Positions 5,060-22,486 of a DNA stretch of 64,000 bases are shown one piece after another. This stretch comes from Martelella lutilitoris. GTDB taxonomy: Bacteria > Pseudomonadota > Alphaproteobacteria > Rhizobiales > Rhizobiaceae. The notes under the pieces are model-generated. The model was given only the letters and a program-made list of their open reading frames with translations. It ran no database searches and had not been told where the DNA came from. The stretch covers positions 434,001 to 498,000 of the forward strand of contig NZ_VCLB01000001.1 in assembly GCF_005924265.1 (NCBI RefSeq), read 5' to 3'. How positions within the stretch are numbered: the stretch's first letter is position 1; each line of letters starts with the position of its first letter. The translations under genes were made by a program, and so were the position numbers.

Positions 5060-5063
5060 CGCG

Positions 5064-5234
5064 CTATTCCCTGAAATAGCGGCGTTCGGCGAATTCGCCT
5101 TTCTTGCCGCGGTTGAAGGAGGAGACCGGACGGTGATAACCCATCACCCGCGTCCAGATTTCGCAGGGCTGGCGCTCGTCGTCGCAAAGCGTGATCTCGG
5201 TTTCCGCGACAATGTCTTTTTCAATCACAGACAT
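5064..5234 (-). CDS. Stand-alone glycyl-radical domain of class III ribonucleotide reductase
   Basis: A 56-residue protein whose C-terminal half matches the glycyl-radical segment at the end of class III reductases: WTRVMGYHRPVSSFNRGKK, with Gly32 as the expected radical site, preceded by Cys17 and Cys24. In most NrdD proteins this segment follows the zinc site in the same chain; here it is separate. The start is the ATG at 5234 with AAAGGAA before it, 11 bases after the nrdD stop and in a different frame. nrdG follows 4 bases later. Its own ribosome-binding site and clean N terminus argue for a genuine split gene rather than a sequencing error. Function as the radical-carrying part of NrdD is inferred from the motif and position. 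Confidence 0.85.
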   Translation of the reverse strand: MSVIEKDIVAETEITLCDDERQPCEIWTRVMGYHRPVSSFNRGKKGEFAERRYFRE

Positions 5235-5245
5235 GATTTTTCCTT

Positions 5246-7303: not shown

Positions 7304-7489
7304 GATCGGTTCCCCTCGGTTTGAGATCGTGGCCGCACCGCATATGGTATGTCTTGTCGACACAGCCTCAACATGTGGTGGCTACGGCCATGACCATCGA
7401 TGAACCGATTCGCGCCTTCCCGCCTTGCACATCGTCAGGTGGGTTCGATTTTGATGGGGAATGCCGGTGCGACCTGGCGACGCGGGCGC

Positions 7490-8497
7490 TTATCGTCTGC
7501 CGCTGGAATCCCTGACGGTCAGGGTGACGGGGGAAAAGGCCTTTTCCGGCGGGCGCTCGCCGGTCTCAAGCCATGCCAGCATGGTGGCGGCGGCGTTGCG
7601 GCCGAAGGCGCCGATATCGCAATGGACGGAGGAGAGCTGGGGAAAGGCCAGCGCGCATTCCTCGATATCGTCAAAGCCGATCAGCGCGATGTCGCGCCCG
7701 ATGGCGACGCCCGTTTCGGCAAATCCGGAAAGCATGCCGAGCGCCACAAGGTCGTTGAAACAGAGCACGGCATCGAGCCTGCGGGGATCGTGCGAGAGTT
7801 TCAGCGCCGCATCGCGTCCGAAGGCCCGCGTCGGCCGACCGAGCAGGGTGAAGGGCTCCGCGCCGGTCTCGGCGATCACGGCGCGGTAGCCGGCCATGCG
7901 CTCATGGGTGACCGCCCTGTCCGGCAGGCCGCCGACAAAGGCGATATCCTTCGCGCCGATCTCAACCAGGTGACGGGCGGCGGCGATGCTGCCGGCCTCG
8001 TAGTCGAGCGAGGCGAAGGGAAAGCGGCCCGTATCGGCATTGGCCATGCGCAGCACCTGCAGCGCGGGAATGCCGGCGCGCGCGATCCGCTCGAACACCG
8101 CGCCGTCATCGCCATAGGCGGGCGACATGATCAGCGCCGAAACGCCGTGCTCGACCATGGAGGCGATCACCTGGTCCTGGATGGCGGTGTCCTCGTCGGT
8201 ATTGGCAATTACGGTGGCAAAGCCGTGTTCGGCAAAGGCCATCTGGGCGCTGGCCGCAAATTCGGCGAAGAAGGGGTTCCTGAGATCGTTGATGACGAGC
8301 CCGATAAGCCCGGCCTCGGCCCCGCGCAGGTTGGCCGCCGCGCGGTTATAGACATAGTTCAGCGCCTGCATCGATTGCTCGACGCGCTTGCGGGTCTCCT
8401 GCTTGACCAGCGGCGAATTCTGCAGGACGAGCGAGACCGTCGACTTGGAAAGCCCCGCATGGCGGGCTACATCAATGATCGTCGGTCGTTTCGCCAC
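7490..8497 (-). CDS. LacI-family transcriptional regulator of the catabolic cluster
   Basis: A 335-residue LacI-type repressor. The N-terminal helix-turn-helix is TIIDVARHAGLSKSTVSLVL (residues 6-25), followed by the hinge helix around NRAAANLRG and a periplasmic-binding-protein-like effector domain (GLIGLVINDLRNPFFAEF onward). It is the last gene of the minus-strand cluster, 173 bases after the GMC oxidoreductase gene, and probably shares its transcript. Two LacI-type palindromes with a central CG, at 10285-10300 and 22431-22448, are likely its operators. The effector is probably the imported substrate or an early product; the sequence does not say which. Confidence 0.9.
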   Translation of the reverse strand: MAKRPTIIDVARHAGLSKSTVSLVLQNSPLVKQETRKRVEQSMQALNYVYNRAAANLRGAEAGLIGLVINDLRNPFFAEFAASAQMAFAEHGFATVIANTDEDTAIQDQVIASMVEHGVSALIMSPAYGDDGAVFERIARAGIPALQVLRMANADTGRFPFASLDYEAGSIAAARHLVEIGAKDIAFVGGLPDRAVTHERMAGYRAVIAETGAEPFTLLGRPTRAFGRDAALKLSHDPRRLDAVLCFNDLVALGMLSGFAETGVAIGRDIALIGFDDIEECALAFPQLSSVHCDIGAFGRNAAATMLAWLETGERPPEKAFSPVTLTVRDSSGRR

Positions 8498-8572
8498 TTC
8501 CTATTCCCTTTGTCGCGTGCCGGGTTCAGGGGCCGCAGGTGCTTTGATCTCTGCTCGGCGCCTCTATCCAGC

Positions 8573-8601
8573 GTCATGCTCGGGCTTGGCCCGAGGATGA
8601 C
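8573..8601. repeat. Single-arm copy of the 28-bp palindromic element
   Basis: A 29-bp palindrome, GTCATGCTCGGGC-TTG-GCCCGAGGATGAC, between the LacI gene and the GMC oxidoreductase gene. It matches one arm of the elements at 4853-4931 and 33910-34056. On the minus transcript it forms a strong hairpin that could tune LacI expression. Confidence 0.75.
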
Positions 8602-8670
8602 ACAGAGAGCGGGAGGTCCGTCACAGCCAAAGTTTGTTTCTTGCCTCCTCCGCTCATGCTCCGCAAGCCC

Positions 8671-10251
8671 TCAGAGCCCGTATTCGCGGGCAATCATGTC
8701 GGCGGCCTTTTCACCGATCATGATCGCCGCCGCATTGGTGTTCGACGAAATCAGCGTTGGCATGATCGAGGCATCGACGACGCGCAGGCCGTCAAGACCG
8801 TTGAACTTCAGTTCCGGGTCGACAACGGCGCGATCGTCATTGCCCATGCGGCAGGTGCCGGCGGGGTGGTGGTCGGTCTTGGCGTGGCGGCAGGCATAGT
8901 GGAAATAATCATCGTCCGTCTTCACCTCCGGGCCGGGAATCATCTCTCGCTTGATGAAGGGGGCAAGCGCCTTCTGGTGCATGATCTCCTGCGCCAGCTT
9001 CAACCCGCGGATCGACATTTCGCGATCATGCGGGTCGGCCCAGTAGTTGGGGTCGATCAGCGGCGCATCGGCGGGATTGGCGGATTTCAGCCGCACGCTG
9101 CCGCGCGCGCGAGGTCTCAGATAGGCCGAATTCAGCGTCACGCCCGGGTTCTTCATCTTTTCCACGCCGGCCTCGATGCCGGAGCCGAGGCCCAGATGGA
9201 ACTGGATATCCGGCGAGCGCGCGCCCTCTTCCGCATACCAGAAACCGCCGGTCTCAAACAGGCTTGAGGCGACGGGGCCCTTGCGCGTCAGCAGATATTG
9301 CAGGCCTGCGACCGCCGACCACAGGGGCTCGGCATATTTGTCATAGGTGAAATCGCCGGCGCATTCGAGAATGGTGAAGAGGTCGAGATGATCCTGCAGG
9401 TTGGCGCCGACGTCCGGATGGTCGAACACCGCCTCGATGCCGACATCGCCGAGATGCGCCTTCGGACCGATGCCGGAGAGCATCAAAAGCCGCGGCGAGC
9501 CGATGGCGCCGGAGGACAGCAGCACCTCGCGCGCGGCGGTGATCACTTCGCCGGCCGCCGTCTCCACGCCCGTGACCCTTCCGTTTTCAACGCGCAGGCG
9601 CCGCGTCTCGACGCCGGTACGGATGGTGAGGTTCTTGCGGGTGCGGGCCTTCGCCAGATAGGCCTTGGATGTCGAGGAGCGGCGGGCGTGCTTTTGGGTC
9701 AGCTGGTAATAACCGACGCCGTCCTGTTTCTCGCCGGTCATGTCTTCGTTGAAGGGAATGCCGAGTGCGCCGGCCGCCCTGAAATAGGCCTCGCAGATCG
9801 GCAGCGGCGCGGCCGGTTTTGAAACGCCGAGCGGGCCACCTTTGCCGTGGTACTCATTGTCGTAGGTGTCGTTGTCTTCGGCCTTCTTGAAGAAGGGCAG
9901 GACATCGTCATAGCCCCAGCCGGTGCAGCCCATCTGCCGCCACTCGTCATAATCAAGCCGGTTGCCGCGCGTGTAGATCTGGGCGTTGATCGAGGAACCG
10001 CCGCCGATCACCTTGGCCTGGGTGAAGCGGATCGACATGCCGTTCATGTGTTTTTGCGGCACGGTGTGCCAGCCCCAGCTGCCGATTCCCTTGGTCATCT
10101 TCGCGAAACCGGCGGGCAGCGTATAGAACGGGTGGCTGTCACGCGAGCCGGCTTCCAGAAGCAGAACGTTGACCTCCGGGTTTTCCGAAAGCCTCGCCGC
10201 CAGAAGGCAACCGGCCGAACCGCCGCCGACAATGATGAAATCATAGGCCAT
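8671..10251 (-). CDS. GMC-family FAD alcohol dehydrogenase (choline dehydrogenase-like)
   Basis: A 526-residue flavoenzyme of the glucose-methanol-choline family. The FAD-binding Rossmann motif is FIIVGGGSAGCLLAARLSE at residues 5-23, the family signature is VIGGGSSINAQIYTRG near residue 85, and the C terminus has HHPAGTCRMG and NTNAAAIMIGEKAADMI. These proteins oxidise primary or secondary alcohols, often passing electrons to quinones. Although it resembles BetA, the betaine-pathway BetA is encoded separately at 34144, so this copy should have another alcohol substrate. An ATG with GGGAGGAAA before it starts the gene. Upstream lie a TATAGT-like -10 (10300-10305, minus strand) and a LacI-type operator, so it has its own regulated promoter. 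Confidence 0.9.
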   Translation of the reverse strand: MAYDFIIVGGGSAGCLLAARLSENPEVNVLLLEAGSRDSHPFYTLPAGFAKMTKGIGSWGWHTVPQKHMNGMSIRFTQAKVIGGGSSINAQIYTRGNRLDYDEWRQMGCTGWGYDDVLPFFKKAEDNDTYDNEYHGKGGPLGVSKPAAPLPICEAYFRAAGALGIPFNEDMTGEKQDGVGYYQLTQKHARRSSTSKAYLAKARTRKNLTIRTGVETRRLRVENGRVTGVETAAGEVITAAREVLLSSGAIGSPRLLMLSGIGPKAHLGDVGIEAVFDHPDVGANLQDHLDLFTILECAGDFTYDKYAEPLWSAVAGLQYLLTRKGPVASSLFETGGFWYAEEGARSPDIQFHLGLGSGIEAGVEKMKNPGVTLNSAYLRPRARGSVRLKSANPADAPLIDPNYWADPHDREMSIRGLKLAQEIMHQKALAPFIKREMIPGPEVKTDDDYFHYACRHAKTDHHPAGTCRMGNDDRAVVDPELKFNGLDGLRVVDASIMPTLISSNTNAAAIMIGEKAADMIAREYGL

Positions 10252-10284
10252 GCACTTTCCTCCCGAGGGCCTTCTAGCATGAGA

Positions 10285-10300
10285 TTAGGAACGTTCCAAA
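10285..10300 (-). promoter_or_regulatory. LacI-type operator upstream of the GMC oxidoreductase gene
   Basis: TTAGGAACGTTCCAAA, a 16-bp palindrome with a perfect GGAACGTTCC core and central CG, as expected for LacI-family operators. It matches the operator at 22431-22448 in nearly every position and directly follows a TATAGT-like -10 on the minus strand, where a bound repressor would block initiation. Confidence 0.75.
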
Positions 10301-10336
10301 CTATATTTGCGGTCTCCCGCGCCGCACCCTGTTTCC

Positions 10337-10458
10337 GTCACCCCGGCCTTGAGCCGGGGTCCAGGGCCGAATGCGAGGCCATTTTGTCGAGGATCGGCCA
10401 AAGGCTTGGCAAAGGTCCTGCCGAACCGCCCTGGATACCGGATCAAGTCCGGTATGAC
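10337..10458. repeat. Interspersed element with palindromic termini (10.3 kb)
   Basis: Two terminal palindromes, GTCACCCCGGCC-TTGA-... at 10337-10362 and a TACCGGA-TCAAG-TCCGGTA unit at 10432-10458, flank a 69-bp centre. The layout is the same as that of the 33910-34056 element (outer GTCA and TGAC ends), with diverged arm sequences. It separates the SDR gene from the GMC gene's promoter. Confidence 0.7.
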
Positions 10459-10495
10459 GGGATCGAGAATCCTCGGTGCTCTCTGCCCCCAACAC

Positions 10496-11257
10496 TCAAA
10501 GCCGCGCGATCGACAATCCGCCATCGGCGGAAATCACGGTGCCGGTGGCGAAGGCGAAGCGGCCCTCGGCGAGCGGCAGCACCGCCGCGCCGATATCTTC
10601 CGGCGTGCCCCAGCGGGCGGCCGGCACGAGGCCGTCCTTGATGCGGGCGGTGTATTTGTCCTTCACGCCGGCCGTCATGCCGGTCTCGATGATGCCGGGA
10701 CGGACGTCGAAGACGGAAATGCCGTGTGCCGCAAGACGCGCGGCGAAAAGCTGCGCCATCATCGCCGCGCCAGCCTTGGAGATGCAGTATTCGGCCCGCT
10801 CCACCGAAACCATGTCGGCGCTGACGGAGGTGATGAAGATGATCGACCGGGGCGTTTCCGCCTCCCACGCCGCCATGCGCCGGGCCGTCTCCTGCGCCAG
10901 GAAGAAGGCGCCGCGCAGATTGACCGACATGACGAAATCGAAGTTTTCCGGCTTGAGATAGAGCATGTCGCCCCTGACCGGCGCGCCGACGCCGGCATTG
11001 GAGACGAGCGTCGTCACCCGGCCCATCGTCGCCTCGACGTCATCGAGAAGCGCGCCAACCCGGCCGATATCGCGCATGTCATGGCGGAAATAGCAGGCAT
11101 TGCCGCCGAGCTTTTCCAGCGCCCCCGTTACGGCCGGCGCATCGAATGCGGCCTCTGCGGCAATCGCCACCCGAAAGCCCGCCTCGACAAGAGCCGAAGC
11201 GATGCCAAGGCCGATGCCCTGCTGGCCGCCCGTGATCAGCGCCACCTTCCCACTCAT
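10496..11257 (-). CDS. Short-chain dehydrogenase/reductase
   Basis: A 253-residue classical SDR. The NAD(P)-binding motif is TGGQQGIG at residues 9-16, with NAG at 87-89 and the catalytic set Ser144, Tyr157 and Lys161 (YCISK). The C-terminal SADGG is typical of FabG-like enzymes. It would interconvert an alcohol and a ketone on the substrate or a CoA intermediate. The gene overlaps the upstream GMC gene by four bases (ATGA), so it is translated from the same message. With an enoyl-CoA hydratase in the same operon, it might act as a hydroxyacyl dehydrogenase; this is inference. Confidence 0.9.
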   Translation of the reverse strand: MSGKVALITGGQQGIGLGIASALVEAGFRVAIAAEAAFDAPAVTGALEKLGGNACYFRHDMRDIGRVGALLDDVEATMGRVTTLVSNAGVGAPVRGDMLYLKPENFDFVMSVNLRGAFFLAQETARRMAAWEAETPRSIIFITSVSADMVSVERAEYCISKAGAAMMAQLFAARLAAHGISVFDVRPGIIETGMTAGVKDKYTARIKDGLVPAARWGTPEDIGAAVLPLAEGRFAFATGTVISADGGLSIARL

Positions 11258-12738
11258 GCGCCAAGCTCCTTCCTCATTGCATCCGCCGCTTTCATTGCAA
11301 GCGCCGCGACCGTCAGCGCCGGGTTGACGGCGGCCGAGGTCGGCAGGGCCGAGGCATCGGCGACAAACAGATTGTCATGGTCGAAGCTGCGGCAATCGGG
11401 ATCAAGCACCGCCGTTTTCGGATCGCTGCCGATGCGCGCCGTGCCGCATTGATGCGAGGGCACGCGACCATCGAAAAGTCGCGACAGCACGATCGGGAAA
11501 CCAGCAGCCTTCAGCGTCTTCTTCGTCTTTTCGACAAGCCTGTGATGCGCGACCATATTGGAACGACGCCAGATGAGCTGGATATCATCGCCCTTGACGA
11601 CGACCCGGCTTTCAGGATCCGGCAGATCCTCCGATATCGCATAGAGATCGACGGCATGGCGCGAGATATGGCGGCAGGCCGCCATCGGCAGGGACGGCAC
11701 ATTGGCCTTCAGGATTTTCGGCACCACCCGGCCCAGAAGCTGGACATTGCCGAGCGGCGACCCGTTATGCCCGTCGCTCAAATACCAGTCATTGATGCCG
11801 AAGGTCTTCTGGTAGGTGCTGTCATTCACAAAGCGCGGATCATAGGCGATCAGCGCCGAGGCATTGTGGTTCATGAAGTTGCGGCCGACCTGATCGGAGG
11901 AATTGGCGAGCCCGTTCCTGAGCAGCAAGGCCGCGCTCTGCACCGCGCCGGCGGCAAGGGCCACGAAGCGCGGGGTGAGCGTCACGGTCTCGCCGTCCTT
12001 GTCGTAGCTGACGCGGGCAATACGACGCCCGCCGGCTTCGGTTTCGAGCCCGGTGACGCGCGCACCGGTGACAAGCATCACATTGTCATGAGACAATGCC
12101 GCCGCAAGCCCGCAGGTCTCCGCATCCATCTTGCCCGAGCGTATATCGGGATAACCGTCCCAGCCATCGGCTCCATGGGAAAGCCAGGTATCGATATCGA
12201 CGCCGAGCGGCAGGGTGAAGGGGCGCACGCCCGCTTTCACAAGCCTTTCGCGCACGGCGGCGATCGCCGGCTCGTCGGGAACCGGCGGAAAGGGATAGGG
12301 TCCGTCATGGGTGGGCTCGGTGGCGTCGCTCGTCACATCGCCGCGCACCTGGTAGAGCGTCTCCGCTGCGGCGTAATAAGGCGCGAGCGTCTCATAGGGA
12401 AACGGCCATGCGGGCGAGATGCCGCCCTCATGCTCCATCGCCTGGAAATCCTGCCTGCGGTAGCGCAGCAGCACCGCGCCGTAGAATTTGGAGTTGCCGC
12501 CGACATTGTAGTAATTGCCGGGCGAGAACCGCTTGCCTTGCCCGTCGAGCCAGGTCTCGTCGGAGCGGAAGGCGCTGTTCTTGTAGATACGGTCGGGATC
12601 GCGCGCCGGCGCGTCGTCGGGGATCTGCTCGCCGCGCTCGAGAATGACGATCTCGGCTCCCGTCGGGGCGAGCGCGGCGGCAAGCGTCGCGCCCCCCATG
12701 CCGGAACCGATGATTACCACGTCGGGTGACCGGTTCAT
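11254..12738 (-). CDS. GMC-family FAD oxidoreductase, sugar-dehydrogenase-like
   Basis: A 494-residue flavoprotein of the GMC superfamily but of a different branch from the one at 8671. The FAD motif is VVIIGSGMGGATLAAALA (residues 7-24). The C terminus, with CGTARIGSDPKTAVLDPDC, then LFVADASALPTSAAVNPALT, resembles the large subunits of FAD sugar dehydrogenases such as glucoside 3-dehydrogenases and gluconate dehydrogenases. I see no small subunit or cytochrome partner nearby. It starts 4 bases after the ABC ATPase gene and overlaps the SDR gene by 4, so it belongs to the operon. Oxidation of the imported sugar-like substrate is the likely role; the exact position oxidised is unknown. Confidence 0.85.
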   Translation of the reverse strand: MNRSPDVVIIGSGMGGATLAAALAPTGAEIVILERGEQIPDDAPARDPDRIYKNSAFRSDETWLDGQGKRFSPGNYYNVGGNSKFYGAVLLRYRRQDFQAMEHEGGISPAWPFPYETLAPYYAAAETLYQVRGDVTSDATEPTHDGPYPFPPVPDEPAIAAVRERLVKAGVRPFTLPLGVDIDTWLSHGADGWDGYPDIRSGKMDAETCGLAAALSHDNVMLVTGARVTGLETEAGGRRIARVSYDKDGETVTLTPRFVALAAGAVQSAALLLRNGLANSSDQVGRNFMNHNASALIAYDPRFVNDSTYQKTFGINDWYLSDGHNGSPLGNVQLLGRVVPKILKANVPSLPMAACRHISRHAVDLYAISEDLPDPESRVVVKGDDIQLIWRRSNMVAHHRLVEKTKKTLKAAGFPIVLSRLFDGRVPSHQCGTARIGSDPKTAVLDPDCRSFDHDNLFVADASALPTSAAVNPALTVAALAMKAADAMRKELGA

Positions 12739-12741
12739 GGC

Positions 12742-13851
12742 TTACCCGATACGCTCTTCGGTTTCCGGATCAAAGGCGACCGCCTTTTCCATGTTGACGG
12801 CGAACGGGAAGGTATCGCCCGGCTTCGCCTCGACATCGGCGCGGAACCGGGCGGTTACCTCCTTGCCGCCGAGCTGGGTGACGACGAAAAGGTCGGAGCC
12901 CGCCGGCTCGGTCACCTCGACCCTGGCATTGATCGTGTGGACGGCATTGGAGGAGCGGTCGGCGCCGAGCTCGTCGGTGACCGCTTCCGGACGGACGCCC
13001 AGAATGATGTCGCGGCCATCATGCGCGGTCATAGCGTCGCCGGGGAAGGGCAGATGCGCCTTGCCGCCATCGGCGAGCGCGAATTCGGCCGCCGCCGTGC
13101 CGTCCTGGACGACGATCTTCGCCGGAAACAGGTTCATTGACGGCGAGCCCATGAAGCCGGCGACGAACATGTTGGCCGGATTGTCGTAGATCTCCTTCGG
13201 CGTGCCGAGCTGCTGCACATGGCCGCCGAACATCACCGCGATACGGGTCGAGAGCGTCAGCGCCTCGATCTGGTCATGGGTCACATAGACGATCGTGGTG
13301 CCGAGCTTCTGGTGCAGCTTCTTGATCTCGGTGCGCATGTCGACGCGGAGTTTCGCATCGAGGTTCGACAGCGGTTCGTCAAACAGAAAGACGTCGGGAT
13401 CGCGCACCAGCGCCCGGCCCATGGCGACGCGCTGGCGCTGGCCGCCGGAAAGCTGGCCGGGCTTGCGCTTCAGAAGATGCCTGATCTGCAGAAGATCGGC
13501 CACCTGGTCGATCGCCTTGTCGCGCTCGGCCTTGGGCACGCCGTGCATTTCCAGGCCGAAGGAGATGTTCTCGCCGACATTCATGTTCGGATAGAGGGCA
13601 TAGGACTGGAACACCATGGCGATGTTGCGGTCTGCGGGCCTGACGCCGTTCATCGACCGGCCGTTGATGGAGATGTCGCCGCTTGTGGTCGGCTCGAGGC
13701 CGGCAATCATGCTGAGCAGCGTGGACTTGCCGCAGCCGGACGGGCCGACGAGCACCAGGAACTCGCCTTCTTCCACGGCGATATTCGTCTCATGCAGCAC
13801 CGTCAGCGCGCCGAAGCTCTTGGTGACGTGATCGATCTTGAGAAAACCCAT
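12742..13851 (-). CDS. Sugar ABC transporter ATPase (MalK/UgpC type)
   Basis: A 369-residue ATPase that powers the importer encoded just upstream. Walker A is GPSGCGKST (residues 37-45), the signature is LSGGQRQRVAMGRAL, and Walker B is VFLFDEPLSNLDAKLR. The C-terminal 130 residues form a TOBE/MalK-type regulatory domain (ILGVRPEAV). It lies 4 bases after the second permease gene. Proteins of this type often serve several importers, but its position shows it belongs with this one. Confidence 0.95.
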   Translation of the reverse strand: MGFLKIDHVTKSFGALTVLHETNIAVEEGEFLVLVGPSGCGKSTLLSMIAGLEPTTSGDISINGRSMNGVRPADRNIAMVFQSYALYPNMNVGENISFGLEMHGVPKAERDKAIDQVADLLQIRHLLKRKPGQLSGGQRQRVAMGRALVRDPDVFLFDEPLSNLDAKLRVDMRTEIKKLHQKLGTTIVYVTHDQIEALTLSTRIAVMFGGHVQQLGTPKEIYDNPANMFVAGFMGSPSMNLFPAKIVVQDGTAAAEFALADGGKAHLPFPGDAMTAHDGRDIILGVRPEAVTDELGADRSSNAVHTINARVEVTEPAGSDLFVVTQLGGKEVTARFRADVEAKPGDTFPFAVNMEKAVAFDPETEERIG

Positions 13852-13855
13852 GCTT

Positions 13856-14737
13856 TTACCCTTTCACGCTGCCGGCCATCAGGCCGCGCACGAAGTAGCG
13901 ACCGGCGACGATGTAGACGAGAAGCGTCGGCAGCGCCGCCATGATCGCCCCGGCGAAGTGGACATTGTATTCCTTCACGCCGGTGGAGGACTGGACGAGA
14001 TTGTTGAGCGCCACCGTCATCGGCTGGCTGTTGAAATCGGAAAACGACGCACCGAACAGGAAGTCGTTCCAGATATTGGTGAACTGCCAGATGATGCAGA
14101 CCACTGCGATCGGCCCGGACGAGGGCAGCATGATGCGGCGGAAGATGGTGAAGAAGCCCGCGCCGTCGATCTGTGCCGCGCGCACCAGCTCGTCGGGAAA
14201 CTGGGCATAGTAATTGCGGAAATAGAGCGTCGAGAAACCGATGCCATAGACCAGATGCACGAAGATCAGCCCCGGCACGGAGCCGGCAATCCCCATGATG
14301 CCCAGAATCCGCGCCATCGGGATCAGCACGATCTGGAAGGGGATGAAGCAGGCAAACAGCAGAAGGCCGAAGATGATCTTGTGGCCGCGGAACTGCCACT
14401 TGGTCAGCACATAGCCGTTGAGCGCGCCGAGCACGGTGGAGATGGCGACAGCCGGCACCACCATCTGGATCGAGTTCATGAAATAGGGTTTCAGGCCTGT
14501 CGCCTGCACGCCGATCTGCGCCGTCGACCAGGCGCTCTTCCATGGCGCGATGGTCCAGGCCTGCGGCAGGTTCATCATTCCGCCCGCCTGGATTTCGCGC
14601 AAGGGTTTGAGCGAGTTCACCACCATCACATAGAGCGGCAGCAGGTAATAGAGGCAGAAGATCAAAAGGATCGTGTAGATGACGAAGCGCGCGCCGCGGC
14701 CCGTCGAGACGACCTGGGTGGAAGCGTTCGAGCTCAT
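13856..14737 (-). CDS. Sugar ABC transporter permease (MalG/GtsC-like)
   Basis: A 293-residue inner-membrane permease with six predicted membrane segments, the first at about residues 20-42 (FVIYTILLIFCLYYLLPLYV). The EAA loop that contacts the ATPase is LVRAAQIDGAGFFTIFRRIM. I place the start at the ATG at 14737 because it overlaps the stop of the preceding permease as ATGA; an upstream in-frame ATG would lie inside that gene. Pairs with the 14734-15636 permease. Confidence 0.93.
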   Translation of the reverse strand: MSSNASTQVVSTGRGARFVIYTILLIFCLYYLLPLYVMVVNSLKPLREIQAGGMMNLPQAWTIAPWKSAWSTAQIGVQATGLKPYFMNSIQMVVPAVAISTVLGALNGYVLTKWQFRGHKIIFGLLLFACFIPFQIVLIPMARILGIMGIAGSVPGLIFVHLVYGIGFSTLYFRNYYAQFPDELVRAAQIDGAGFFTIFRRIMLPSSGPIAVVCIIWQFTNIWNDFLFGASFSDFNSQPMTVALNNLVQSSTGVKEYNVHFAGAIMAALPTLLVYIVAGRYFVRGLMAGSVKG

Positions 14738-15636: not shown

Positions 15637-15698
15637 TCCTATCCTCCGGGTTGGCGGCCCTGCCGCCGGTGTTGTTCTGAAGCGGATTACCGCCAATC

Positions 15699-15834
15699 AA
15701 TCTCCCCCCCCCCTTGAGGGGAAATGTCGCAAAAGCGACAGAGGGGGTATGGGGCTTGCCTCAAGCACCGGACGTGCTGCTGGCGGTTTCCCCCCTCTGC
15801 CCTGCCGGGCATCTCCCCCTTAAAGGGGGGAGAT
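15699..15834. repeat. Mosaic interspersed element (CT-rich termini), copy 1
   Basis: About 136 bp lying between the binding-protein and permease genes. It starts with AATCTCCCCCC and ends with GGGGGGAGATC, and has internal stems such as GTCGC-AAAA-GCGAC and GCCCTGCCGGGC. Similar units with the same ends and the same GTCGC/GCGAC box are at 19657-19794 and 60663-60802. On the transcript it could fold into a cruciform that protects the binding-protein message. Confidence 0.85.
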
Positions 15835-15951
15835 CGACAAGCGGCAAGTTCAGTTGGCAAGCCAAGCCGGTGTTGGAGCGACGTGCTCTTCAAACCCGCC
15901 TCATGGTCTGCGAGCGGAGAGGGCCTTGGCCCTCTCCGAAGTGCGTTGTGT

Positions 15952-17208
15952 TTACTGCGCGATCTGTACCGCCGTGACCAGTTCCTCGGTCGCGGTTTCG
16001 CTGTCGTACTCGCCGTTGAACTGGGCGGTGATCACGTCATACATGGCGTTCTTGACGGAGGCCGGGTTGGCGTGGCCATGCGCCATCGAACCGAACAGGT
16101 TGCCGCTTTCCGAGGCTGCGGCCAGATCGGCCATGCCCTTCTTGCCGCAGGCGTCAAACGCCTCGTCCGAGACGTCGGTGCGCGCCGGCACCGAGCCCTT
16201 GACGACGTTGAAGGCCGACTGGAATTCCGGCGACATGATCGCCTTGGCCAGCGCTGCCTGTTCCGGCGTCGGCTCGTCACCCTGCTCGAAGAAGGCGAAC
16301 TGGTCGGAGTTGAAGGTCACCTGGTCCTGCGTGCCGGGGAAGCGGAAGCACAGGAAATCCTCGTCCGGCGTCAGCCCGGCCTTCAGGAATTCGCCCTTGG
16401 CCCAGTCGCCCATGAACTGGAAGGCGGCCTCGTCATTGATGACCATGGCGGAGGCGAGGTTCCAGTCGCGACCGGAGAAGTTGTCGTCCACATAGCCGCG
16501 GATCACGGTCATGCGGTCGAAGACCTCCTTCATCGTGTCGGAACCGAGCGCGTCAGGGTCAAGATCGACCATCGAGGCCTGGTAGAATTCCGGCCCCCCG
16601 GTCGCCATGACCACGGCGTCGAAGATGGTGGCGTCCTGCCAGGCCTGGCCGCCATGGGCGACGGCGGTTTTGCCGGAGGCCTTCACCTTGTCCATCGCGG
16701 CAACAAGCTCGTCCCAGGTCTCGGGCTGTTCGATGCCGAGCTCGTCGAGGATTTTCTTGTTGGCCCAGACCCAGTTGGTGGAGTGGACATTGACCGGGGC
16801 CGCGACCCATTCTCCGTCATATTTAGAGAATTTCTGCAGCGCCGGCGGCACGACGGCATCCCAGTTCTCTTCGGCGGCGATGTCGTTCAGGTTGGCGAGC
16901 GCGCCTTCGGCGGCCCAGTCGGTGATGTCGAAGCCGAGCATCTGCACGGCCGCCGGCGGATTGCCGCCCGTCACGCGGGCACGCAGCACGGTCATGGCCT
17001 GTTCGCCGCCGCCGCCTGCCACCGGCATGTCCTGCCAACCGATGCCCTGGTCCTGCAGGTTCTCCTTCAGGACGTTCAAGGCCGCAGCCTCGCCGCCGGA
17101 TGTCCACCAGTGCAGGACTTCCACGTCCTCGGCCTTGACCGAGGTGGCGGATGCGGAAGCCGCCACGATGGCGAGCATTGCTGCACTTCTTGCAAAATTC
17201 AAACGCAT
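15952..17208 (-). CDS. Carbohydrate ABC transporter substrate-binding protein (GtsA-like)
   Basis: A 418-residue periplasmic binding protein. The N terminus is a typical signal peptide ([17 protein letters not shown], probable cleavage near residues 23-25). The mature protein has [19 protein letters not shown] and [15 protein letters not shown], characteristic of the GtsA glucose/mannose-type branch of family 1 binding proteins. The ATG at 17208 has GAGGAGGAGA before it; a longer frame upstream lacks support. It shares the operon with the two permeases and ATPase downstream. The ligand is probably a monosaccharide or a related polyol or glycoside; specificity cannot be read from the sequence. 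Confidence 0.93.
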
Positions 17209-17304
17209 AGTCTCCTCCTCTTTGCGTTTTGAAACCCCATGGCCGGTTTCGGCCATGATGGTCATTTCCTCTCCCGCAGGCCGCAATCGGCGCGGCCGGC
17301 GATC

Positions 17305-18822
17305 TCACTCGACCCAGGATGCGCGCGTGCGCCCGATGCGCATCGTCACGGTCTTCACCTCCAGGTATTCCTCCAGCCCGTAGCGGCCGAGCTCGCGGCC
17401 GAGGCCCGATTGCTTGACGCCGCCGAACGGCAGTTCGGAAAATCCATCCATCCAGGTATTGGTCCACACGGTGCCGGCCTGAACGCGGCGGGCGAAGGCA
17501 AGGCAGGTGCTGACATCGTTGCTCCAGACCCCTGCAGACAGCCCGTAGGCAGCGCCGTTGGCGAGCGCGATTGCCTCCTCAATCGTTTTAAACGTCAAGA
17601 CCGACAGCACCGGTCCGAAGACCTCCTCCCGTGCGACAGCCATGGTGGAATTGACATTTGTCACGACTGTAGGCGTGTAGAACCGGCCTGACAACCCCGG
17701 CACGGCAAGCGCTCCGCCGCCAAGAGGTATGGCCGCGCCGTCGCTTCTGGCGCCTGAGACATAGCTGTCGATCTTGTCGAAATGCGCATCCGAAATGATC
17801 GCCCCGACCTTGGTGCGCGGATCGAGCGGATCGCCGAAGGGGACTTTTTTCGACAACGCCACCACCCTCTCGGTCAGCGCTTCAGCGATGTCCTCATGCA
17901 CGATGATGCGCGAGCCGGAATTGCAGCATTCGCCGGCGTTGAAATAGACGCCGAAGACGATGGCATCGGTCGCCTCGTCGAGATCGCAATCGGGGAAGAC
18001 CACCTGCGGGTTCTTGCCGCCGAGTTCCAGCGAAACCTTCTTCAGCGTTCCGGCACTTGCCCGGACGATCGCCTTGCCGACGGCGGTCGAGCCCGTGAAC
18101 GACACCATGTCGACGCTTTCGCTCTCGCACATGGTCGTTCCCACCGGATCGCCATAGCCGAGCACGATGTTGACGACGCCGTCGGGAATGCCGGCCTCCA
18201 TCAGCAATTCGCCGAGGATGACGGCCGAGGACGGGGTCAGTTCCGACGGTTTGACGACGGCGGTGCAGCCGGCGGCAAGGGCAAAGGGCAGTTTCTGCGA
18301 GACGATGAGGAAAGGAAAATTCCACGGCGCGATCAGGGCCGCGACCCCGACCGGCTCCTTCAGCACCAGGCCGAGCATGTCGTCGCCGAGCGAATTGTGG
18401 CTGTCGCCGGAAACCGTGCGGGCAAGCGAGGCGGCAAAGCGCCAGATATCGATCGCCCCCCCGATCTCATCACGGGCCTGCGAAATCGGCTTGCCGCTTT
18501 CCAGCGTGTCGCGCATGGCGATGCGATCGAGGTCGCGTTCGATGAATGCGGCAACCTTCAGCAGGATCTCGGCGCGCTCCTTGCCGGAGATGCGCGACCA
18601 GCGTCCGTCATCAAAGGCTTCTCGGGCGGCAGCGATTGCCGCTTCCGTCTCCGCAGCGCCGCCAAGGGCGGCCTCCGTCACCGTCTGCCCGTGAGCGGGC
18701 GATGCGCGCTCAAAGGTTTCGCCGTTTGCGGATGCCTGCCATTTTCCGTTGATCAGGTGGCGGGCGACGAAAACCGGTTCCGGCGTGTGGTTGACAGCGG
18801 GGATGATGGTGAGGTCGGTCAT
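17305..18822 (-). CDS. NAD(P)-dependent aldehyde dehydrogenase
   Basis: A 505-residue aldehyde dehydrogenase. The general base is Glu266 in LELGGK and the nucleophile is Cys300 in GECCNSG; PWNFP and FTGS complete the NAD-binding set. The ATG at 18822 lies two bases after the enoyl-CoA hydratase stop. The frame is open far upstream, but that part is the hydratase gene read in the wrong frame, so this is not a fusion. It would oxidise the aldehyde made by one of the GMC enzymes. It is distinct from BetB at 32359. Confidence 0.93.
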   Translation of the reverse strand: MTDLTIIPAVNHTPEPVFVARHLINGKWQASANGETFERASPAHGQTVTEAALGGAAETEAAIAAAREAFDDGRWSRISGKERAEILLKVAAFIERDLDRIAMRDTLESGKPISQARDEIGGAIDIWRFAASLARTVSGDSHNSLGDDMLGLVLKEPVGVAALIAPWNFPFLIVSQKLPFALAAGCTAVVKPSELTPSSAVILGELLMEAGIPDGVVNIVLGYGDPVGTTMCESESVDMVSFTGSTAVGKAIVRASAGTLKKVSLELGGKNPQVVFPDCDLDEATDAIVFGVYFNAGECCNSGSRIIVHEDIAEALTERVVALSKKVPFGDPLDPRTKVGAIISDAHFDKIDSYVSGARSDGAAIPLGGGALAVPGLSGRFYTPTVVTNVNSTMAVAREEVFGPVLSVLTFKTIEEAIALANGAAYGLSAGVWSNDVSTCLAFARRVQAGTVWTNTWMDGFSELPFGGVKQSGLGRELGRYGLEEYLEVKTVTMRIGRTRASWVE

Positions 18823-18824
18823 GT

Positions 18825-19592
18825 CTAGCAGCCCTTGAATGACGGTTTGCGTTTTTCGCGAAAGGCCGAAACGCCCTCGGCCTTGTCGAAGGAGGCGGCG
18901 ATCATGCCGCTGCCGAGCGTTTCGACCATGGCGGAGCGGTCTTCGCCCACGCCCGCGTGGATCATGTATTTGACGATTTCGGTGGAATAGGCGGAGGTCT
19001 CCAAGCCGGCTTCGGCGATCTCGAAAGCGCGGGCGCGGCAGTCTTCCGCAATCTCCGCGGCAAAGCCCAGCGCGGTTGCGCGTTCCGCCCCGATGCGCCG
19101 GCCAAAGAGCGCCATTTCCTTGACAACGGGTTCCGGCAGAAGCCGCGTCATGCGCTGCGTGCCGGACCAGCCGGGTACGATCCCGATCTTGGGCTCGGGC
19201 AGCGCGATCGTCGCCTTCGGCGCCATCACCCGGATATCGCAGGCAATGGCAAGCTCGAGACCGCCGCCGAACGTATGCGCCGAAAGGGCCGCGATCGTCG
19301 GTTTGGAAAGCCGCGCCAGCCGGTCGAACCGCCGGTGCCCGTCGCGCACCCAGAAGCGGGCGAAATCGCCCGGCGACAGATCGCCCCAGGCATTGATGTC
19401 GGCGCCGGCGCAAAAGGCCCGGTCGCCTTCGGCCGTCAGGATGACAACGCGGATCGCGGGATCGGTCTCGATTGCGGCAATATGAGCCTCGAGGCTGTCG
19501 AGCATCTCCGGCGTGAAGGCATTGAGCTTGGCCGGATTATCCAGTCGAAGCTCGGCGATGGGGCCGTGCGGGATCAGATGAATGGCGCTCAT
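18825..19592 (-). CDS. Enoyl-CoA hydratase/isomerase family protein
   Basis: A 255-residue crotonase-fold protein. The CoA and oxyanion segments AFCAGADINAWG (about 60-71) and HTFGGGLELAIACD are present, and both glutamates expected of a true hydratase are found, Glu113 and Glu133. It would hydrate a 2-enoyl-CoA. Its place between a CoA-transferase and an aldehyde dehydrogenase in a sugar-type import operon is unusual and points to a CoA-linked degradation route. The start is the ATG at 19592 with a weak GGAA site. A mosaic repeat fills the gap to the upstream CoA-transferase gene. Confidence 0.9.
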   Translation of the reverse strand: MSAIHLIPHGPIAELRLDNPAKLNAFTPEMLDSLEAHIAAIETDPAIRVVILTAEGDRAFCAGADINAWGDLSPGDFARFWVRDGHRRFDRLARLSKPTIAALSAHTFGGGLELAIACDIRVMAPKATIALPEPKIGIVPGWSGTQRMTRLLPEPVVKEMALFGRRIGAERATALGFAAEIAEDCRARAFEIAEAGLETSAYSTEIVKYMIHAGVGEDRSAMVETLGSGMIAASFDKAEGVSAFREKRKPSFKGC

Positions 19593-19656
19593 CGGGCAGG
19601 TTCCATTGTCCTTGAAGACGGCATTTTGGCTACGAGCCTTGCGAAGTCCCCCCACC

Positions 19657-19794
19657 GATCTCCCCCCGTGATGAGGAGGTGTCGCGAAAGCGACAGAGGG
19701 GGAGATGAGGCAGAGCCGCTAGCTCCTAACGGGCGGAGAGAATTCACCCCCCTTTGCCCCTGTCGGGGCATCTCCCCCTCACGGGGGGAGATTG
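19657..19794. repeat. Mosaic interspersed element (CT-rich termini), copy 2
   Basis: About 138 bp with GATCTCCCCCC and GGGGGGAGATT termini and the internal hairpin GTCGC-GAAA-GCGAC, like the copies at 15699 and 60663. The right half has GCCCC-TGTC-GGGGC. It lies between the CoA-transferase and hydratase genes on the operon message. Confidence 0.85.
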
Positions 19795-19836
19795 TTGGGT
19801 CAGGGGTGACGGCAAAGTGGGCGGATACGAAGCTAC

Positions 19837-21411
19837 TCATATCGTGAGCCCCATCTTCCGTTCCGACAGCAGCGACAGCGGCATGCTGGTCGCATTCTCG
19901 GCGACGGAGACCCGTCCGCCGGAAGCGGCGATGATGTCGCGTTCGGGATCGATGCCGGGCATGATCTCGGTGGCGACAAGGCCGTTTTCGCCGATGCGCA
20001 TGACGCAGCGTTCCGTGACATAGAGCACGTCCTGGCCGTTCTCCCGGGCGCGGCTCCCTGAGAAGGTGACGTGTTCGACGGCCTCGACCATCTTCGAAAA
20101 CTTGCCCGGCTTTTCGACGAACAGGCCTTCGCTGGTCAGGTTGAGACCGGCCGCCGCCTCGAAAAGACCTGCAAAGACGATCTTGCGGGCATTGGCCGTG
20201 ATATCGACGAAACCGCCGCAGCCGGCCGTCAGATAAGGCTTCTTGCCGAGCTTGGAGACGTTGACATTGCCCTTGCGGTCCACCTCGAGGAAGGAAAGGA
20301 AGGTCACGTCGAAGCCGCCGCCCTGAAAATAGGTGAACTGGTTGGGCGAAGGCATGAAGGCATCGGCATTCGAGGCGCAGCCAAAGGCAAAGCCGGTGAG
20401 CGGCATGCCGCCGACGGCGCCCTGCTCGATGGCCCATGTGACATCGCCGGCCCGGCCTTCCTCCAGCAGGATGCGCGGCACCAGCGCGCAGATGCCGAAG
20501 CCGAGATTGGCCGCCTGACCGGCGGAAAGCTCCATCGCGGCGCGGCGCGCAATCACTTTTTCGACACCGTATTCGGCCAGCTCGAAATCGGCCAGTGGGT
20601 GGATGATTTCGCCGGAAATCGCAGGATCGTAAAGCGTCTCGGTGGTCTGGTATTGGTCGGGATCGACCACGATGCAGTCCACCAGATGGCCGGGAACGCG
20701 CACATCATGCGGACGCAGCGAACCGGCCGCCGTCACCCGCTTGACCTGGGCGATGACGAGGCCGCGATTGTTGCGCGCGGCAATCGCCTGATCGAGGCCG
20801 CCGAGATAGGCGCCCTCGTGCTCATAGGTGAGATTGCCGTGTTCATCGGCCGTCGTTGCTCTGAGGATCGTCACGTCGGGGGCAAAATTGTCGAAATGCA
20901 GCCAGGTGTCGCCGGCGAAGTCGACACGTTTGACGATTGGCGCGGCGGCGGCCTTGTCGTTCATGGCGCAGCCCTGAAGCTCAGGATCGACAAAGGTGTC
21001 GATGCCGACCTGGGTGAGCACCCCCGGGCGCTTTGCCGCCACATCGCGATGCATGTCGAACATGATACCGGAGGGCACGTTGTAGGCCGCGATCCGGTTT
21101 TCAACGATCATTTTCCAGATTTCCGGCATCGGCAGCGACGAGGCGCCGCTCGGGTAGGAGCCGGCGATCACCCTGTCGAGAAGCCCGTCGCGGGCAATGT
21201 GGTCAATGCCCTTGATGCCGTACATGTCGCCGGCGGCAATCGGATGCAGCGTGGTCAGCCTCCGGGGGTGGCCGGTGGCCTCAAACCGCGCGCCCAGCGC
21301 TTCCAGCACCTTGTCCGGGCAGCCGAGACCGGAGGAGGACGAGACCGAAACCACGGCGTTGTCTGCGATCCGGCTGACGGCGGCTTCCGCGCTGACGACC
21401 TTGCTCTTCAT
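19837..21411 (-). CDS. YdiF/propionate CoA-transferase-like acyl-CoA transferase
   Basis: A 524-residue single-chain family I CoA-transferase, the usual length for YdiF and propionate CoA-transferases with alpha and beta halves fused. The catalytic glutamate that forms the glutamyl-CoA thioester is Glu329 in AIEQGAVGGMPLTG. GAYLGGLDQ and PDVTILRATTADEHGN fit the family. It would activate a carboxylic acid using acetyl-CoA or another donor, feeding the hydratase. It is the second gene of the operon, 3 bases after the Gfo/Idh gene. Confidence 0.9.
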   Translation of the reverse strand: MKSKVVSAEAAVSRIADNAVVSVSSSSGLGCPDKVLEALGARFEATGHPRRLTTLHPIAAGDMYGIKGIDHIARDGLLDRVIAGSYPSGASSLPMPEIWKMIVENRIAAYNVPSGIMFDMHRDVAAKRPGVLTQVGIDTFVDPELQGCAMNDKAAAAPIVKRVDFAGDTWLHFDNFAPDVTILRATTADEHGNLTYEHEGAYLGGLDQAIAARNNRGLVIAQVKRVTAAGSLRPHDVRVPGHLVDCIVVDPDQYQTTETLYDPAISGEIIHPLADFELAEYGVEKVIARRAAMELSAGQAANLGFGICALVPRILLEEGRAGDVTWAIEQGAVGGMPLTGFAFGCASNADAFMPSPNQFTYFQGGGFDVTFLSFLEVDRKGNVNVSKLGKKPYLTAGCGGFVDITANARKIVFAGLFEAAAGLNLTSEGLFVEKPGKFSKMVEAVEHVTFSGSRARENGQDVLYVTERCVMRIGENGLVATEIMPGIDPERDIIAASGGRVSVAENATSMPLSLLSERKMGLTI

Positions 21412-21414
21412 TTC

Positions 21415-22416
21415 TCAATATCCCTTGTAGTCCACGTCGACGGCCCGTCCCTCGTGCGCCGATCGGGCGACAGCCATCGCTACCGCCAGCGACTTCAGTC
21501 CGTCGACACCGTCAGCAGCCGGGCGGCCGTGGCCGGCAACGGCACGGTTGAAGGCCTTCAGGCCGTAGCCGTAGACGTCGTGGCGTTCATAGTTGAGTTG
21601 TACGGTGCCGTCCTTGTCGGTCATCGTGATCGTGCCGGTCGGTCGCTGGGTCATGACGCCCTGGGCAAAAAGCGAACCCTCCGTGCCGTGAACCTCGATG
21701 CCGGAACCGGCATAGGGATGGGTAAAGCTCTCATGGCTCTGCACCATGATACCGGACGGCATGGTCCAGACCGACATGACGCTGTCTTCCACGCCCTCGC
21801 CAAGCCCCGAGGAGACCGCCTGCGCGACGACGGTCTTCGGATCCTCGCCGAGATGAAAGCGCACCGTGTCGGCGTCATGGACGGTAATGTCGGCGATGAC
21901 GCCGCCGCCGGCGTCCCGGTTGTCGATGCGCCAGCCGCGCAGATGCTCCGGCAAGCTGACGGCATGGAATACCCGCATCGACAGGATACGTCCGAGCCGG
22001 CCCTCTGCTATGAGCTGCCGGATAGCAAGATGCGCACCGGCGCAGCGCAGGTGATGATTGGCGGCGAAGACGAGACCGGCGCTTCTGGCCGCTTCGACCA
22101 TTTTCGCCGCGTCATCAACGCTGAGCGCCAGCGGCTTTTCGCACAGTACATGCTTGCCGGCGGCAAAGGCGGCCATGGCTTGAGAGAAATGCTTCTCGTT
22201 GGTGGTCGAGATGTAGACGGCGCCGATCTCGGGGCGCGCCAGAAGGGCGTCGAGATCGGTGAAGGCGTGCGGAATGCCATTGCGGGTCGCAAAGGCCCGG
22301 CCGCGCTCCGCGCTCGACGACAGGACCGCCTCGACCGTGTGGCCGGACTGCGCCCTGATTGCCCCGATCATGTGCTCGGACGCGATCGTACTGGCCCCGA
22401 CAAGACCCCACTTCAT
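21415..22416 (-). CDS. Gfo/Idh/MocA-family sugar dehydrogenase, first gene of the catabolic operon
   Basis: A 333-residue NAD(P)-dependent oxidoreductase. The N-terminal Rossmann fold is GLVGASTIASEHMIGAIR, and the family EKP motif lies in HVLCEKPLALS; WRIDNRDAGGGVIADITVHD supplies the C-terminal catalytic lobe. Members oxidise hydroxyls of sugars, inositols and anhydrosugars. The ATG at 22416 has GGGAGGAGA before it; the frame extends 10 codons upstream through the operator but is not used. This is the promoter-proximal gene, with a clear promoter and a LacI-type operator directly upstream. Confidence 0.92.
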   Translation of the reverse strand: MKWGLVGASTIASEHMIGAIRAQSGHTVEAVLSSSAERGRAFATRNGIPHAFTDLDALLARPEIGAVYISTTNEKHFSQAMAAFAAGKHVLCEKPLALSVDDAAKMVEAARSAGLVFAANHHLRCAGAHLAIRQLIAEGRLGRILSMRVFHAVSLPEHLRGWRIDNRDAGGGVIADITVHDADTVRFHLGEDPKTVVAQAVSSGLGEGVEDSVMSVWTMPSGIMVQSHESFTHPYAGSGIEVHGTEGSLFAQGVMTQRPTGTITMTDKDGTVQLNYERHDVYGYGLKAFNRAVAGHGRPAADGVDGLKSLAVAMAVARSAHEGRAVDVDYKGY

Positions 22417-22430
22417 ACAGTCTCCTCCCA

Positions 22431-22448
22431 ATTTGGCACGTTCCAAAT
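22431..22448 (-). promoter_or_regulatory. LacI-type operator of the catabolic operon
   Basis: ATTTGGCACGTTCCAAAT, an 18-bp palindrome with one mismatched pair and a central CG. It starts just after the predicted transcription start and ends next to the ribosome-binding site of the Gfo/Idh gene. It shares the core TTnGGmACGTkCCnAA with the site at 10285-10300. Confidence 0.8.
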
Positions 22449-22457
22449 TCTGGATGA

Positions 22458-22486
22458 TGTTTAGGCGATGATCTGCCGTTCGTCAA
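22458..22486 (-). promoter_or_regulatory. Probable sigma-70 promoter of the catabolic operon
   Basis: On the minus strand, TTGACG (22486-22481) is followed after exactly 17 bases by TAAACA (22463-22458). The expected start of transcription falls about 7 bases downstream, at the edge of the operator, which gives a simple repression geometry. Confidence 0.65.

Follow-up and report, generated by a model that had tools for sequence, protein, structure and literature searches.

A LacI-linked operon around a 1,5-anhydro-D-fructose reductase homologue in Martelella lutilitoris, and a possible CoA-dependent ring opening of a proposed anhydro-sugar substrate

Introduction

What would a bacterium do with an operon that joins a sugar importer to a CoA-transferase and a crotonase? 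The question is raised by twelve genes at positions 7490-22416, on the minus strand, of a 64,000-nucleotide stretch of the 4.45-Mb genome of Martelella lutilitoris (hereafter the window; G000:C1:434001-498000, with G, C and L numbers denoting genomes, contigs and loci). They encode, in order, a Gfo/Idh/MocA oxidoreductase, a CoA-transferase (CoAT), a crotonase, an aldehyde dehydrogenase (ALDH), a sugar-binding protein, two permeases and an ATPase, a GMC flavoenzyme (GMC2), an SDR oxidoreductase, a second GMC flavoenzyme (GMC1) and a LacI-family regulator. An earlier sequence-only reading had described a single minus-strand cluster of these families, LacI apart, accurately for every gene that it named.

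The answer proposed here begins with the Gfo protein, which is a close homologue of 1,5-anhydro-D-fructose reductase (AFR). The substrate class that this points to, the 1,5-anhydrohexitols, is fairly well supported. We give roughly even chances to the fuller reading, that the operon serves aerobic growth on 1,5-anhydro-D-fructose (AF), 1,5-anhydro-D-mannitol (AM) and perhaps 1,5-anhydro-D-glucitol (AG) under its own LacI repressor. The operon matters because the steps after AFR are still unexplained.

Results

The Gfo protein (21415-22416, minus strand, 333 aa) had been left in the sequence-only reading as an anonymous dehydrogenase, a description that can now be replaced. With its start corrected to the ATG at 22416 rather than 22446, it aligns over nearly its whole length with two AFRs of solved structure, 2glx (E 4.6e-111, 54% identity), which we take to be from S. 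morelense, and 4koa (7.6e-109, 53%); the next best solved relative follows at 1.3e-26, a gap of over 80 orders of magnitude in E-value. The lysine of the EKP motif and the aspartate and histidine of the DxxxH motif, presumably the catalytic residues, are kept in 83 of 83 Gfo homologues over the identity limit. The crystallised AFR of Sinorhizobium meliloti (4koa) corresponds at 328 of 329 aligned residues to L143:12994-13995, a gene annotated as AFR by its depositors, and we take SMc04400 to be this AFR. Its gene lies after LacI and before CoAT in the S. meliloti operon, the same place as in the window. By homology the window protein is predicted to reduce AF with NADPH; conversion of AF to AM is attributed to AFR in aerobic Rhizobiaceae in passages of a recent review (PMC12441222).

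The gene order around this enzyme is widely conserved. A CoAT scan of named genomes confirmed at least 579 relatives, of which the best 80 were taken as named loci; gene counts were made on the 60 of these with about 10 kb on both flanks, as plus-strand matches over set identity limits. All 60 are colinear with the window. The crotonase is present in 60, GMC2 in 59, ALDH and each importer gene in 56, Gfo in 54 and the SDR in 51, and all nine genes from Gfo to GMC2 are present together in 50; for GMC1 (30/60) and LacI (5/60) the fetched stretch mostly stops at or before the gene. The loci come mostly from Rhodobacterales, Roseibium, Amaricoccus and other Alphaproteobacteria. This comparison, in which the genes are not scattered independently and their order is kept, bears out the proposal of a single conserved operon for CoA-linked catabolism, joined to an importer of the glucose type.

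Families of open reading frames that recur in at least 15 of the 80 named loci mostly coincide with cluster genes, on one strand or the other. Those that do not lie between ALDH and the binding protein, where 33 loci carry an opposite-strand LacI-like gene (28 of the 33 labelled LacI; for example L064:13871-14920) and 16 carry short reading frames; many relatives thus have a LacI gene there instead of, or besides, the one at the cluster end.

In S. meliloti (L143) a divergent DHDPS-family protein and LacI are followed by AFR, CoAT, crotonase, ALDH, the four importer genes, and then GMC, SDR, GMC and glycerate kinase. Passages of a 2025 table (PMC12542648) give SMc04390-04392 as L-sorbose dehydrogenase, the GMC1 counterpart, followed by an SDR and a dehydrogenase, in agreement with this order. 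L143 itself is CP090106.1, a 3.7-Mb S. meliloti record labelled as plasmid pSymB; for strain 1021 the regulator of this cluster, SMc04401, is given as a chromosomal gene, and the label may be wrong. Peteryoungia (L145) has Gfo, CoAT, crotonase, ALDH, importer, GMC, SDR and GMC, then a Dabb protein, the DHDPS-family protein, LacI and glycerate kinase. The small Dabb (A/B barrel) gene lies at L145:25996-26325, between GMC1 and the DHDPS-family gene, which belongs to DUF993.

Whole genomes of the order were covered by a sample of 249, scored on the best eight candidates per genome for AFR and the best five for CoAT, so that misses are possible. CoAT matches of at least 57% identity occupy 36 places in 32 genomes, and AFR lies within 105 bases of CoAT at 21 of them. 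Conversely, 21 of the 24 AFR matches of at least 51% identity adjoin CoAT, the other three being in G203, G042 and G147. At G042 and G147 (L148, L149) the AFR-like proteins, of 53% identity, sit in a different setting near a crotonase; in L148, the one of the two for which neighbour families were computed, that setting also holds acyl-CoA ligase-type, biotin carboxylase and carboxyl transferase genes.

A palindromic operator with the 14-mer core TTGGAACGTTCCAA accompanies the cluster. Operator 1, the palindrome ATTTGGCACGTTCCAAAT at 22431-22448 (no strand), lies upstream of the AFR-like gene with 0 mismatches to ATTTGGNACGTNCCAAAT, and operator 2 at 10284-10301 (no strand) lies upstream of GMC1-LacI with 2; these are the only sites in the genome at up to two mismatches. 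At up to three the window holds three matches, against 0.14 expected, the third, at 29667, carrying three mismatches. The exact 14-mer was not found in this genome, whose sites carry mismatches to it. In the named loci of at least 21 kb the core, at up to two mismatches, precedes Gfo (8600-9060) in 54 of 60, and 93 of the 142 core sites there fall before Gfo; when the bases of all loci were simply shuffled, 3 matches remained in 2.49 Mb. Exact copies of the core occur at six places in 5 of the 249 genomes, each inside or beside this cluster, and the pattern read backwards, used as a control, matches in two genomes.

In relatives, LacI genes adjoin the same operator, and divergent DUF993/LacI pairs (e.g. 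L117, L121, L123, L124, L139, L143) have one operator before each gene. Where the cluster is split, in G203, with LacI-AFR-crotonase on contig 5 and CoAT-ALDH-GMC2-SDR-GMC1-glycerate kinase plus a divergent DUF993 on contig 23, the operator is present on both pieces. In L141 (G026, partial) DUF993 adjoins CoAT, and no operator was found there at up to two mismatches. Judged from the distribution of these sites, the operator marks the regulon of the cluster, probably under its own LacI repressor. Like the gene set, the gene order and the relationship to AFR, it comes from homology and comparison among genomes.

The DUF993 protein recurs with the cluster. It lies within 20 kb of CoAT at 27 of the 36 places, and is found in 31 of the 32 genomes with CoAT compared with 71 of 249 overall (hypergeometric 1e-18, a figure that ignores relatedness). 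Five named loci reach at least 400 bases beyond GMC1; DUF993 comes next in four of them, and the fifth resembles the window in having LacI immediately after GMC1. Glycerate kinase lies beside the cluster in L047, L093, L120, L143 and L145. The low counts in the 60 flanked loci, 4 for DUF993 and 2 for glycerate kinase, are due to stretches that mostly stop at GMC1. The earlier remark that the operon has neither kinase nor aldolase therefore describes the window cluster correctly and fails for some relatives, whose regulon includes glycerate kinase and a protein of the DHDPS fold.

A model of DUF993 predicted from 16 sequences (pLDDT 86) matches best 4dnh, an uncharacterised S. meliloti protein, and next, by Foldseek, DHDPS enzymes (3flu, E 8.7e-10, target TM 0.82), with 10-17% identity to the DHDPS matches listed. 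The model gives DUF993 a predicted TIM-barrel fold of DHDPS/NAL type. Lys229, invariant in 16 of 16 sequences, lies on strand 6 (225-231), which we take to be the position of the Schiff-base lysine of DHDPS enzymes. No mention of DUF993 was found in the open PMC papers searched.

The only DUF993 gene of the window's own genome is at G000:C12:289282-292446 (L133:8283-11447), with a further Gfo/Idh gene on one side and a xylose-isomerase-like gene on the other; an adenine-deaminase-like gene is nearby, at what is a separate locus.

A second, paralogous cluster type is found on S. meliloti 1021 pSymA and elsewhere (L144, L128, L130, L134, L136, L131, L127, L129, L140). It combines, with varying completeness, ALDH, GMC1, CoAT, crotonase, SDR, DUF993 and a xylose-isomerase-like protein, with an acyl-CoA dehydrogenase in L128, L130, L134, L136 and L144 and a glycerate kinase in L144. 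It has no AFR next to CoAT and no GMC2. The operator, at up to two mismatches, is absent from L127, L128, L130, L134, L136, L140 and L144, and L129 and L131 have one weak match each. Perhaps this type serves a related cyclic-ether or deoxy substrate.

In a reduced variant in G040 (L115, L147) the importer is of the tripartite carboxylate type (TctC and TctA identified) and the operator lies ahead of TctC; with it are CoAT (70%), crotonase (56%), SDR (55%), LacI (57%) and a FAH-family protein. The approximately 28 kb read contain no AFR, neither of the GMCs and no GtsABC-type importer; several kb away are an ALDH of 34% and, on the opposite strand, a more distantly related ABC importer (25-48%). 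A search of the G040 genome gave no AFR match, and its DUF993 gene is elsewhere. If the task of AFR, the GMCs and ALDH is the production of a carboxylic acid, a strain able to take that acid up would need only what G040 retains, namely CoAT, crotonase and SDR.

The remaining enzymes of the window cluster fit their assigned families. CoAT (19837-21411, 524 aa, YdiF-type), 99% identical to that of Martelella radicis, matches 2ahu (E 2.4e-94 over 5-495) and keeps the fused two-domain length, with Glu329. The crotonase (18825-19592, 255 aa) has both Glu113 and Glu133. These glutamates, named in the sequence-only reading, are each present in 102 of 102 aligned homologues (103 loci given), with matches below 55% (CoAT) and 38% (crotonase) identity dropped. 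ALDH (17305-18822, 505 aa) matches Pfam Aldedh at 2e-166. GMC2 (11254-12738, 494 aa) is of the FAD-glucose/fructose dehydrogenase large-subunit type (6a2u, E 4.7e-37; 7w2j, 1.5e-27), and GMC1 (8671-10251) is assigned by family match to the choline/alcohol dehydrogenase type. The SDR (10496-11257) belongs to the FabG-like PRK12745 family (NF009386, 325 bits, cut-off 250), and the LacI-family regulator (7490-8497), also a family match, ends the cluster. All of these genes, and those of the importer, are on the minus strand.

The importer consists of a GtsA-type binding protein (15952-17208, 418-aa precursor), two BPD_transp_1 permeases (14734-15696, GlcT/UgpA-like; 13856-14764, GlcU/UgpE-like) and a UgpC/MalK-type ATPase (12742-13851; NF008653, 448 bits, cut-off 432). 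The binding protein matches 4r2b at E 2e-180, other sugar-binding proteins at 4e-111 and the glucose-binding protein 2b3b at 1e-36; GtsA is the name of this type of protein, and the ligand of 4r2b is glucose. Its S. meliloti counterpart by tag, SMc04396, is described as induced by dextrin in passages of the literature.

Four start codons, those of Gfo, crotonase, ALDH and the binding protein, were revised and are the choices of this analysis; a 702-aa ALDH reading frame over-extends. Palindromic repeats that we take to be RIME-like (CATCTCCCCC...GGGGGAGATG) lie at 19651-19799, 15810-15835 and 4993-5018 of the window. One of them separates CoAT from the crotonase, genes that touch or overlap in many other loci and are about 190-250 bases apart in the named Martelella loci. 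Directly past the LacI gene, outside the conserved cluster, are an anaerobic ribonucleotide reductase and a radical-SAM protein (4178-7363).

Discussion

The sequence-only reading had proposed that an alcohol is oxidized to an acid, which is activated with CoA and acted on by the crotonase, and this order is still the most economical one. Three candidate substrates had been named, of which one, a polyol ether, fits, since 1,5-anhydrohexitols are cyclic polyol ethers. Overall that interpretation is partly supported.

We suggest that the GtsABC-type importer takes up a glucose-like anhydro-sugar, that GMC2 would oxidize AG at C2 to AF, and that AFR would reduce AF to AM. GMC1 and ALDH may then oxidize the CH2OH group (C6) of AM to the acid; D-mannitol being C2-symmetric, the product would be 2,6-anhydro-D-mannonate. 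CoAT would make its CoA ester, and the crotonase would remove the 3-OH to leave an enol ether conjugated to the thioester, an enoyl-CoA. Addition of water at C2 would give the hemiketal of 2-keto-3-deoxy-D-gluconyl-CoA and so open the ring, with the CoA passed to the next acid. The free 2-keto-3-deoxygluconate (KDG) could be split directly, in relatives by DUF993, into pyruvate and a C3 unit that glycerate kinase would phosphorylate. Alternatively the SDR may oxidize KDG at C4, and a diketo split by DUF993 or the FAH-family protein would yield glycerate at once, a variant consistent with SDR and DUF993 being neighbours in the second type of cluster. Two members of that type, the xylose-isomerase-like protein and the acyl-CoA dehydrogenase, are left out of this scheme.

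The ring-opening chemistry by CoAT and crotonase is what we infer rather than observe, and we consider it possible, if somewhat short of an even chance, that a pyranose ring is opened here without oxygen, radicals or phosphorylation, from acid to CoA ester and, by crotonase elimination, through an enol ether to KDG-CoA. Crotonases act on L-3-hydroxyacyl-CoA, and Fischer bookkeeping gives the acid derived from AM a 3-OH of L configuration. By the same bookkeeping, set against the configuration of KDG, AM and not AG leads to the right configuration at C4 and C5. If the scheme is true, the odd manno-selectivity of AFR would be explained, since AM, through the symmetry of mannitol, gives KDG while AG would not. 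KDG was predicted as the product before DUF993 and glycerate kinase were found, and both were later seen in annotated clusters.

Parts of the scheme have counterparts in known systems. The furoate and tetrahydrofurfuryl-alcohol pathways likewise convert a ring ether acid to a CoA ester and open it as a 2-oxoacyl-CoA; the window cluster differs in having neither a molybdenum dehydrogenase nor an acyl-CoA dehydrogenase, and the double bond would come from dehydration of a hydroxyl. The 2-keto-3-deoxy-rhamnonate diketo-hydrolase pathway and KDG aldolases likewise pair an SDR with a FAH-family or DHDPS-fold enzyme and yield pyruvate and a C3 unit, although DUF993 is only distantly related to DHDPS enzymes (10-17% identity among the matches listed) and lacks their tyrosine. 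The GtsABC glucose/mannose importer has the same parts, a binding protein, two permeases and a UgpC-type ATPase, but is linked here to AFR and CoA enzymes instead of glucose kinase and Entner-Doudoroff genes. The surrounding CoA pathway is no part of the published AFR route, while the window Gfo keeps the length, catalytic residues and genomic place of AFR. Anaerobic degradation of AG and AM uses a phosphotransferase system and the glycyl-radical enzymes YbiW/PflD (Ma et al., cited in passages of PMC12441222). The substrates are the same; that route depends on phosphorylation and an oxygen-sensitive radical enzyme, whereas flavoenzymes and CoA take their place here and the cluster has no radical enzyme.

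Four other known routes were considered and set aside. The phenylpropanoid side-chain route (feruloyl-CoA hydratase/lyase and vanillin dehydrogenase) does not fit a crotonase with both hydratase glutamates beside an AFR-like Gfo, and the hydroxymethylfurfural/furoate pathway needs a molybdenum dehydrogenase that is not in the cluster. The deoxyribonate route, with its beta-keto-acid cleavage, was rejected as DUF993 is a DHDPS-fold protein; no search was made for the cleavage family of that route. The 3-keto routes for levoglucosan and C-glycosides were dropped since Gfo is much closer to AFR than to DgpA or to the sugar 3-ketoreductases. The sequence-only reading could name no pathway, and among the entries listed from the open PMC papers searched we found neither a gene-for-gene match to a characterised pathway nor a description of a CoA pathway for anhydro-sugars. 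The word 'anhydro' does not occur in passages of a LacI-regulon paper.

Several observations weigh against the proposed operon function and its chemistry. Fifteen of the 36 CoAT places have no AFR beside CoAT, G209 and G023 have otherwise normal clusters without it, and the second cluster type lacks AFR and GMC2, so not every cluster has the epimerisation module. The SDR, absent from 10 of the 34 loci in which both GMC genes are visible, cannot be essential everywhere. Nine of the 36 places have no DUF993 within 20 kb, and no importer was seen in the stretches read of the split G203 cluster. DUF993 lacks a catalytic tyrosine on strand 5 and a GTTGE-type motif, features that we presume a DHDPS enzyme to have, and has His188-Trp189 there instead. 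The genome of the window has its DUF993 (C12) and glycerate kinase (C11) genes away from the cluster and without the operator; with the KDPG (2-keto-3-deoxy-6-phosphogluconate) aldolase at C1:270595 also outside the regulon, the route may finish here with ordinary enzymes of the Entner-Doudoroff pathway. KDG kinase and KDPG aldolase had been named as the genes to look for, and a DHDPS-fold protein and glycerate kinase turned up instead, no search aimed at KDG kinase having been made, so that the support is by kind of enzyme and not by name. Hydration by the crotonase at the enol-ether C2 is proposed by analogy to the furoate and tetrahydrofurfuryl-alcohol pathways, and to our knowledge AFR is the only characterised enzyme of the cluster and the only one with activity data. 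The published route also differs: Kuhn et al. (2006), as summarised in passages of PMC12441222, have AM converted to mannose by oxygenation at C1.

This published step is the basis of one rival explanation, in which AM made by AFR is hydroxylated at C1 to mannose by an oxygenase whose gene lies outside the operon, whose other enzymes would deal with a by-product or with another substrate. We regard it as very unlikely. The common operator ties CoAT, crotonase, ALDH and the GMCs to AFR, no oxygenase gene is present in the clusters of the window, S. meliloti (L143) or Peteryoungia (L145), the rest of these genomes not having been searched, and the hydroxylase after AM is still unidentified according to passages of the same review. 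With the CoA route, either the published C1-oxygenation step would be wrong or incomplete, or two routes exist. A route resembling beta-oxidation could instead start from the same acid, with the crotonase acting earlier, the SDR forming a 3-keto ester and DUF993 cleaving it. It would suit the FabG-like family of the SDR, its place next to DUF993 in clusters of the second type (L127, L128, L129, L130, L131, L144) and the acyl-CoA dehydrogenase found in L128, L130, L134, L136 and L144. A polyhydroxy acid already has its 3-OH, however, and the crotonase would be idle; the 3-keto ester has no obvious route to glycerate, and the SDR is missing from 10 of the 34 comparable loci. We consider the route quite improbable.

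The substrate may also be another glucose-like compound, a glycoside, an osone or a different anhydro-sugar, if Gfo has drifted to a related 2-keto sugar. The window protein is only 53-54% identical to the AFRs of solved structure, 53%-identical AFR-like proteins occur in unrelated contexts (G042, G147), AFR reportedly also reduces 2-keto-aldoses, and importers of this type take glucose itself. Against such a drift, the operon order and operator are common to the window and the S. meliloti AFR operon, and the catalytic lysine, aspartate and histidine are kept in all 83 homologues; we consider it unlikely, while giving it some weight.

The cluster works like an aerobic pathway for anhydro-sugars, a sugar catabolic operon in which AFR is the one kind of enzyme already characterised, with a possible new ring-opening step. 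1,5-Anhydroglucitol ranks among the chief polyols in humans, and two inherited neutropenias are traced to its 6-phosphate. Passages of the 2025 review (PMC12441222) state that no oxidative pathway for it is on record and that, for use in a probiotic, an enzyme that works aerobically would be required. The operon supplies eleven structural genes as candidates for the aerobic gap after AM, suggests a role for the uncharacterised family DUF993 (PDB 4dnh), and may offer an explanation for the stereochemistry of AFR.

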